A stretch of 40,176 bases of DNA from Thermoprotei archaeon (GTDB lineage Archaea; Thermoproteota; Thermoprotei; Thermofilales; B69-G16), in contig QMRG01000004.1 in assembly GCA_003649235.1 (NCBI GenBank), positions 1 through 40,176 on the forward strand, given 5' to 3'. Under the pieces are notes generated by a model that was not told where the DNA came from, did not search any database, and worked only from the letters and a program-made list of their open reading frames with translations. Below, piece by piece: positions 5,443 through 6,827 of this stretch. Position 1 is the first letter of the stretch. Every line of letters begins with the position of its first letter. The translations under genes and the position numbers were made by a program.

Positions 5443-5568
5443 TTAGGATATTTCGCTAGTCTTCTCTTCCGAGTATAACAAAGTTGGATATTGATTCATC
5501 AAAATTAAGTCGGTCCGGGTCCGTTTCTTCATCTTAACTTCAGTCCTCATAGCCAGCTCGTCATCCAT
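5443..5568 (-). CDS. Possible 41-aa leaderless small protein
   Basis: Too short for the ORF track. The minus strand reads ATG to TAA for 41 residues (MDDELAMRTEVKMKKRTR and onward), with an acidic start, a basic middle and an acidic end. A good TATA element (CTATATAAG) is centred about 23 nt upstream of the ATG, as expected for a leaderless archaeal mRNA. The ORF ends 2 nt beyond the stop codon of the convergent radical SAM gene. I do not recognise the product. It could be chance; its support is the promoter position and the absence of any other explanation for the sequence. Confidence 0.4.
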   Translation of the reverse strand: MDDELAMRTEVKMKKRTRTDLILMNQYPTLLYSEEKTSEIS

Positions 5569-5586: not shown

Positions 5587-5596
5587 CTTATATAGC
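5587..5596. promoter_or_regulatory. Near-palindromic TATA box that could serve both strands
   Basis: CTTATATAGC on the plus strand reads CTATATAAG on the minus strand. Its centre is about 27 nt upstream of the candidate C/D box sRNA (plus) and about 23 nt upstream of the ATG of the possible 41-aa gene (minus). Both distances fit archaeal TATA-to-start spacing. Confidence 0.5.
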
Positions 5597-5616: not shown

Positions 5617-5672
5617 GGGGATGAAGAAGGAAAATACTGAAAATTGAATGATGTGAAGGAGGTGACCTGACC
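5617..5672 (+). ncRNA. Candidate C/D box sRNA (2'-O-methylation guide)
   Basis: The elements occur in the correct order and spacing: a C-like box (GGGATGA, 5618-5624, one mismatch), a 12-nt guide, box D' (CTGA, 5637-5640), a 7-nt spacer, a C'-like box (ATGATGT, 5648-5654, one mismatch), a 12-nt guide and box D (CTGA, 5667-5670). Short G and C tracts flank the ends and could close a terminal stem. A TATA box lies 27 nt upstream. Such RNAs guide fibrillarin with Nop5 and L7Ae. The D guide GAAGGAGGTGAC is complementary over 9-10 nt to the 3' tail of archaeal 16S rRNA. A fortuitous Shine-Dalgarno-like string is the alternative, but no start codon follows it. Confidence 0.6.
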
Positions 5673-5678
5673 CGGGCG

Positions 5679-5715: not shown

Positions 5716-5811
5716 GGGGCCGTAGCCTAGCAAGGTAGGGCGTCCGGCTCCAGTACATAGCCGGAATGTGGAGAAACCGGAAGGTCGGGGGTTCAAGTCC
5801 CCCCGGCCCCA
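5716..5811 (+). tRNA. tRNA-Trp(CCA) with a canonical 22-nt intron
   Basis: The acceptor stem GGGGCCG pairs with CGGCCCC, discriminator A. The anticodon stem TCCGG/CCGGA encloses the loop CTCCAGA once an intron at 5754-5775 (between positions 37 and 38) is removed, giving anticodon CCA. The exon-intron junctions form a textbook bulge-helix-bulge: central helix CTCC/GGAG, bulges AGT and AAA, and an intron stem ACAT/ATGT. The tRNA-splicing endonuclease would cut after the second base of each bulge. At 22 nt the intron is too short to serve as the box C/D guide found in the long euryarchaeal tRNA-Trp introns. Confidence 0.95.
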
Positions 5812-6209: not shown

Positions 6210-6328
6210 CGGGCCCGCCGGGATTCGAACCCGGGACCCTCGGGTCTCTTCCCTTAAAGGTTAAAAGCCCGATGCTTTCGGAGGCACCTAACGAGGCTAG
6301 GTCCCCTACCGTGCTGAGCTACGGGCCC
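6210..6328 (-). tRNA. tRNA-Lys(UUU) with two introns
   Basis: The acceptor GGGCCCG/CGGGCCC, discriminator G, T arm CCGGG/CCCGG and 5-nt variable loop are intact. The canonical intron (6246-6261, 16 nt, after position 37) shows a bulge-helix-bulge: helix CTTT/GAAG, bulges TAA and AGA. A second 29-nt insertion (6275-6303) interrupts the D stem at position 24/25 (23/24 is equivalent). Only its removal restores D stem GCTC/GGGC and A26, giving a 74-nt tRNA with anticodon TTT. The insertion forms an internal ACCTA/TAGGT hairpin, but I could not draw a clean bulge-helix-bulge around it. The upstream DUF371 gene ends inside the first 23 nt of this tRNA. Confidence 0.88.
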
Positions 6329-6827
6329 GCTGATATTCTGTTATCTTGAGGCTTTTTATAAAGTTTTTGATATTTTCTTCTGTTATCACTAAGTATGCTG
6401 TTAGCTTTTCTCCTCGAGTTAAATCCTTTACAATAGTTCTATCTATATCTCTTGCTGCTTTATCCGCATTTACAGCGACAGTTCTGTCATCTATGTAATC
6501 GCTTTTTCTAATAACTATGGAATTGCGGTCAGCTAATATAAGTCTTGGATCCGATCGGGCTTCTGCAATATCTATTCTTCCTTTAACTATTATCAGCAAA
6601 TAAACTTTATATCCGCTGGTTCTTAAGAGTTGTTTAGTCTTAGAAGATAAATCACTAGCAGCTTTATCTGCTCGGATCCCTATAATACAAGTGCCCCTAG
6701 GAGTTAGATACCCTTCTTTTGTTATCTCTAGCGTTGTGCTATGAGTAGCCTTTATATTTTCATGACCTTCGGCAACTATTTTTTCATAGTATACTTTCAA
6801 ACTAGACAGTATCCTCTCTATGCCCAT
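6306..6827 (-). CDS. DUF371 family protein
   Basis: 173 residues from the ATG at 6827. The diagnostic N-terminal segments GHENIKATHSTTLEIT and LTPRGTCIIGIRADKAASDL place it in archaeal DUF371, a family of unknown function. The rest is alpha/beta (YLLIIVKGRIDIAEARSD) with a second alanine/aspartate repeat (NADKAARDID). The TTG used by the ORF track at 6848 has no visible Shine-Dalgarno; the ATG is more likely. The start overlaps the end of pcm by 26 nt. The final codons and the TAG lie inside tRNA-Lys on the same strand, so the mRNA and the tRNA must be alternative products of one transcript or come from separate promoters. Confidence 0.85.
   Translation of the reverse strand: MGIERILSSLKVYYEKIVAEGHENIKATHSTTLEITKEGYLTPRGTCIIGIRADKAASDLSSKTKQLLRTSGYKVYLLIIVKGRIDIAEARSDPRLILADRNSIVIRKSDYIDDRTVAVNADKAARDIDRTIVKDLTRGEKLTAYLVITEENIKNFIKSLKITEYQRARSSAR

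Follow-up and report, generated by a model that had tools for sequence, protein, structure and literature searches.

Does a short intergenic segment ahead of a tRNA gene encode an RNA directed at the anti-Shine-Dalgarno (anti-SD) end of 16S rRNA, and if so, what does that RNA do there? The question was raised by an initial annotation of 40,176 nucleotides of DNA from a Thermoprotei archaeon of the order Thermofilales (the whole stretch, hereafter the window), which described a candidate C/D box sRNA with a D guide complementary to the 16S rRNA tail.

Structure of the predicted sRNA gene

The features of the locus are:

5617-5673, + strand: whole predicted sRNA gene, GGGGATGAAGAAGGAAAATACTGAAAATTGAATGATGTGAAGGAGGTGACCTGACCC
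5617-5619, + strand: terminal stem, 5' strand GGG, pairs with CCC at 5671-5673
5618-5624, + strand: box C, GGGATGA, one mismatch to RTGATGA; all 24 aligned relatives share the TGA core
5625-5636, + strand: D' guide, AGAAGGAAAATA, 12 nt; diverged even among congeners
5637-5640, + strand: box D', CTGA, exact; CTGA in congener G002, CTGC in congener G001
5648-5654, + strand: box C', ATGATGT, one mismatch; TGA core invariant in 24 relatives
5655-5666, + strand: D guide, GAAGGAGGTGAC, 12 nt; positions 2-11 are 5656-5665, AAGGAGGTGA
5667-5670, + strand: box D, CTGA, exact; CCGA in G002, CAGA in G001
5671-5673, + strand: terminal stem, 3' strand CCC
5587-5595, no strand assigned: TATA-like, nearly palindromic element CTTATATAG in the gap separating the + strand sRNA from a divergent minus strand sRNA
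5716-5811, + strand: tRNA-Trp (CCA) with an intron in the anticodon loop

The locus combines the box order, 12+12-nt guides, rRNA complementarity and conservation by which archaeal C/D box sRNAs are recognised. When both strands of the window were scanned for C, D', C' and D, tolerating up to one mismatch in C and C' but none in D or D', with guide lengths of 10-13 and 11-13 nt, this single site was returned, and none was found in 100 dinucleotide-model shuffles, likewise searched on both strands. The scan thereby reproduced the order of boxes and the two 12-nt guides originally described, and re-reading the window sequence gave the same single mismatches in C and C'. Coincidence had been a worry, the guide being also a perfect SD; the shuffles speak against chance, and the lack of a start codon 3-14 nt after the guide speaks against a mere SD sequence.

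GA cores of the k-turn are present in C and D, with a G replacing uridine in box C of the window. Since the terminal stem runs into the start of box C, its geometry differs from the standard k-turn with a 3-nt bulge; in several genera the stems abut the boxes directly. Relatives have longer matching stems, for example GGGGG/CCCCC (G001) and GGCG/CGCC (genus g3).

DNA similarity, with no motif search involved, identified the corresponding intergenic region in two congeners: in G002 at 86% over 107 bases, and in G001 at 75% over the D half and the tRNA. In all three genomes the locus lies upstream of tRNA-Trp, where a search for the same boxes and guide in relatives had been suggested. The three-way alignment keeps AATGATGT.AAGGAGGTGA in all sequences, with the guide block identical at 10/10 positions, while the D' guide has diverged. 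Disappearance of the boxes from close relatives had been named as a sign against an sRNA. Boxes C and C' persist; D' reads CTGA, CTGA and CTGC, and D reads CTGA, CCGA and CAGA (window, G002 and G001), so that box D keeps the GA core for the k-turn but not the full CTGA. Judged on architecture and conservation, 5617-5673 is very probably a genuine C/D box sRNA gene that has been conserved.

Putative promoter and neighbouring genes

The sRNA would be transcribed from the TATA-like element CTTATATAG, which sits about 26 nt upstream of 5617 and bears out the TATA box reported earlier; similar spacing is kept in G002 and G001. In 25 homologous loci the interval 26-42 nt upstream of box C is enriched for TATA-like matches (Fisher, combined p about 1e-6, the loci being non-independent). 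The downstream tRNA had correctly been named tRNA-Trp: it has a CCA anticodon and an intron, and ARAGORN, which calls Tyr in the window, calls Trp in G002.

A second, divergent C/D box-like sRNA is apparent at 5508-5568 on the minus strand (GGATGACGA...CTGA...AGATGAAGA AACGGACCCGGA CCGA). It is conserved in G001 and G002, with CTGA there, and appears to use the same TATA-like element as the + strand sRNA. Its guide in the window has no clear rRNA target; its G001 counterpart carries a D guide, TCGAACCCGG, that fits the T-arm sequence CCGGGTTCGA of tRNA. At 6211-6330 on the minus strand we also observed a gene resembling tRNA-Lys, with a CTTTTAA anticodon loop, that introns seem to interrupt and that both ARAGORN and Rfam missed; a similar gene is found near the locus in G001. 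In genus g3 (L061-L064) the homologous sRNA is closely followed by a tRNA gene, with a gap of a few bases up to about 15; in L062 and L063 this gene is tRNA-Arg TCG. This arrangement suggests an sRNA-tRNA dicistron in these loci.

Predicted target of the D guide

Throughout Thermofilales the conserved block AAGGAGGUGA occupies exactly guide positions 2-11 upstream of box D and is the complement of the 16S rRNA tail UCACCUCCUU. Guide position 1, adjoining box D, varies freely. This extent agrees with the 10-nt upper limit on what an archaeal guide reads (Yang 2016, as cited in PMC7089733). As originally proposed, the D guide is complementary to the 16S 3' end: positions 2-11 form 10/10 Watson-Crick pairs with UCACCUCCUU, the tails being those of relatives in the order as own-genus 16S is missing. 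All 12 recovered Thermofilales 16S tails read GGAUCACCUCCUU, which contains UCACCUCCUU. The MAG lacks its own 16S gene, and pairing in this organism is therefore extrapolated from its order. In four genomes (G014, G017, G019 and G022) the guide forms nine Watson-Crick pairs and one G.U pair with the tail.

The guide also co-varies with the tail. A tail UCACCUCCUA, ending CCUCCUA, occurs together with the guide UAGGAGGUGA in the Thermoproteus-like genus g24 and in G147, a genome elsewhere in the phylum. We read this as compensatory change of guide and tail in at least one lineage, and probably in two separate lineages. Guide variants other than UAGGAGGUGA preserve pairing via G.U. In the Pyrobaculum-like g17 genomes, with tail CCUCCACCC, we found no convincing matching guide.

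Among the 16S and 23S rRNAs examined, only the tail matches the guide at 10/10 positions. Sites in 23S, or elsewhere in 16S, were rejected as targets of the D guide, the next best reaching 8/10. By the N+5 rule (PMC7994747) the methylated nucleotide would be that opposite G5662, namely C1535 (E. coli numbering). This is the first C of the CCUCC anti-SD core, as had been predicted, and the 12-nt register that places it there is fixed.

The D' guide of the window has no convincing rRNA target (best 8/10). D' guides elsewhere fit 16S rRNA at 9-10 of 10 positions (G024 with AGUCAACGCC, G061 with GGGGAGAAGU), and as these are different 16S sites, D' targets are not common to the family. In three other loci, L121 (G033), L122 (G030) and L120 (G279), the anti-SD 10-mer of the D guide follows a box C, in an apparent D' position with weak D' boxes. 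L121 and L122 have a second guide, GATCCTTTAAGTG, before CTGA, which by eye and without scoring fits 16S ACUUAAAGGA near E. coli position 910. It is possible, as a lead only, that the anti-SD guide has been shuffled between positions in other C/D-like sRNAs.

Distribution of the sRNA

Members were collected by matching C', guide and D in one pattern with up to three mismatches, and 24 of them were used to build a sequence-only family model. At E<=1e-3 this model finds the family in 26/27 Thermofilales genomes, five of which (G010, G011, G014, G022 and G026) were outside the training set. The one exception, G007, is a 52% complete genome. The C and D' boxes, which were absent from the search pattern, are correctly spaced in nearly all members; in L055 box C is degraded. 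Most members in the order lie in other, varied gene neighbourhoods than the tRNA-Trp locus.

Within the same class, relatives are also found in parts of families f13 and f14. In brief, the exact half-sRNA pattern was found in 13/398 genomes of the phylum, 12 of them in the class, and its reversed control in 0/398; a looser pattern gave 27 sites against 7 control sites. We discarded the two or three distant half-pattern matches among these that resemble coding sequence (L112 and L113, and probably L162, as judged by eye), as well as weak model matches that by eye look coding or like genuine SDs (L119, L125, L129 and L131). No C/D family of Rfam reaches its gathering threshold in the window.

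Outside genus g3, most genera retain a D box of CTGA or CCGA together with the 12-nt register. In g3 the D boxes are ATGA, ACGA, TGGA or AGGA, not CTGA, and the guide is retained. In the Thermoproteus-like genus g24, C' and D are 14 nt apart, and the N+5 base moves by two, to C1533. The cultivated T. pendens, T. uzonense and T. tenax presumably carry the sRNA, which makes direct testing feasible.

Conservation, co-variation of guide and tail, the fixed 12-nt register and order-wide occurrence together support a C/D box sRNA with an anti-SD-targeting D guide. Based on these observations, it is very probable that the sRNA is aimed at the anti-SD tail.

Proposed function and alternative explanations

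We suggest that the sRNA assembles with L7Ae, Nop5 and fibrillarin, that D guide positions 2-11 pair with the 16S rRNA 3'-terminal sequence UCACCUCCUU, and that fibrillarin 2'-O-methylates the first C of the CCUCC core. A role in guiding methylation of C1535 is likely on the N+5 rule, if clearly less secure than the target itself. A bound sRNP would cover the anti-SD, and methylation therefore probably takes place on pre-30S particles before translation. The benefit might be a stiffer, hydrolysis-resistant 3' tail and a stronger SD helix at high temperature.

The degenerate D boxes of g3 and the 14-nt spacing of g24 make a masking or chaperone role the main rival. The same RNA would then bind the same target and the pairing itself would be under selection, either masking the anti-SD of the pre-30S particle, thus preventing early mRNA binding or misfolding, or aiding maturation of the 16S 3' end, with methylation absent or incidental. 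We consider this unlikely, though it is the strongest of the alternatives. It would explain why the guide is retained where box D is degenerate, and why pairing is retained in g24 despite the shifted N+5 register. The paired block also extends one nucleotide past CCUCCU, which may be near or beyond the mature end, and a chaperone role has been proposed for archaeal C/D box sRNAs (PMC4644070; PMC7994747). Against it stand the CTGA or CCGA boxes and the 12-nt register in most genera outside g3, as expected for methylation. Somewhat less probable again is an RNP that controls access to the anti-SD, capping the 16S tail in the pre-30S particle and perhaps in the mature 30S under stress. Such an RNP would act as a checkpoint, or would switch initiation between the SD-led and leaderless modes, and methylation would be secondary.

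An archaeal C/D box sRNA could also have its main target elsewhere, in an mRNA or tRNA, the match to the rRNA tail being secondary. The uniqueness of the full-length tail match within 16S and 23S, and the joint change of guide and tail, make this improbable.

Still less credible is a reading in which the block serves a small or leadered gene as its Shine-Dalgarno sequence and the C/D boxes arose by accident. It is true that AAGGAGGTGA is a perfect SD, and that L060, L058 and L076 have a start codon 6-13 nt downstream with an ORF of about 90-132 aa; in these three loci the guide could double as the SD of the downstream gene. However, the interval 3-14 nt after the block holds no start codon in the window, nor does it in most of the 26 loci, so the block is not a Shine-Dalgarno site there, and the remaining loci have short ORFs only. 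Boxes, spacing and register are kept across unrelated neighbourhoods, and the guide tracks the last base of the 16S tail. The SD reading is thus largely refuted.

Finally, decay of the window copy to a pseudogene or chance remnant might be read from the single mismatches in C and C' and the variable D boxes of the congeners, but is the least probable explanation of all, as this copy scores 3e-9 against the family model (of which it is itself a training sequence) and retains both CTGA boxes, the TATA element and the guide.

Few single-stranded parts of rRNA bear as heavy a functional load as the anti-SD tail, and an order-wide guide that tracks its sequence implies that methylation or masking at this site is under selection. 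Since archaea translate both SD-led and leaderless mRNAs, either activity could bear on the choice of start site.

Relation to known systems

In its class the RNA is a familiar one. Like archaeal C/D box sRNAs of the sR family it falls within 50-60 nt, has the order C-D'-C'-D and 12-nt guides, and carries an rRNA-complementary guide read at positions 2-11 with an N+5 site. Resemblance to Rfam sR60, sR12 and sR2 is weak and far below the gathering score (the best such match among relatives, to sR60, has 22.1 bits against a gathering score of 50), so it is not a member of these families. It differs in its target: predicted methylation hotspots in archaeal 16S rRNA lie in the core helices 3, 18 and 27 (PMC4644070), whereas here the target is the single-stranded anti-SD tail. 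The P. abyssi 30S modifications consulted include none in the anti-SD (PMC7005279). Our search of the full-text literature, with published supplementary sRNA tables outside its scope, gave no description of an anti-SD-directed C/D box sRNA, and such a target appears to be undescribed in the accessible literature.

Two other systems act on the same end of 16S rRNA. Ribosomes of Bacteroidia likewise control access to the anti-SD on the ribosome; according to PMC9976891 they do so with a bS21/bS18/bS6 protein pocket in the 30S and no RNA guide, in contrast to the transient RNA guide proposed here. KsgA/Dim1 and other h45 enzymes likewise modify the 16S 3' end, late in 30S assembly. These are stand-alone enzymes that modify bases of h45, whereas we propose RNA-guided ribose methylation of the tail.
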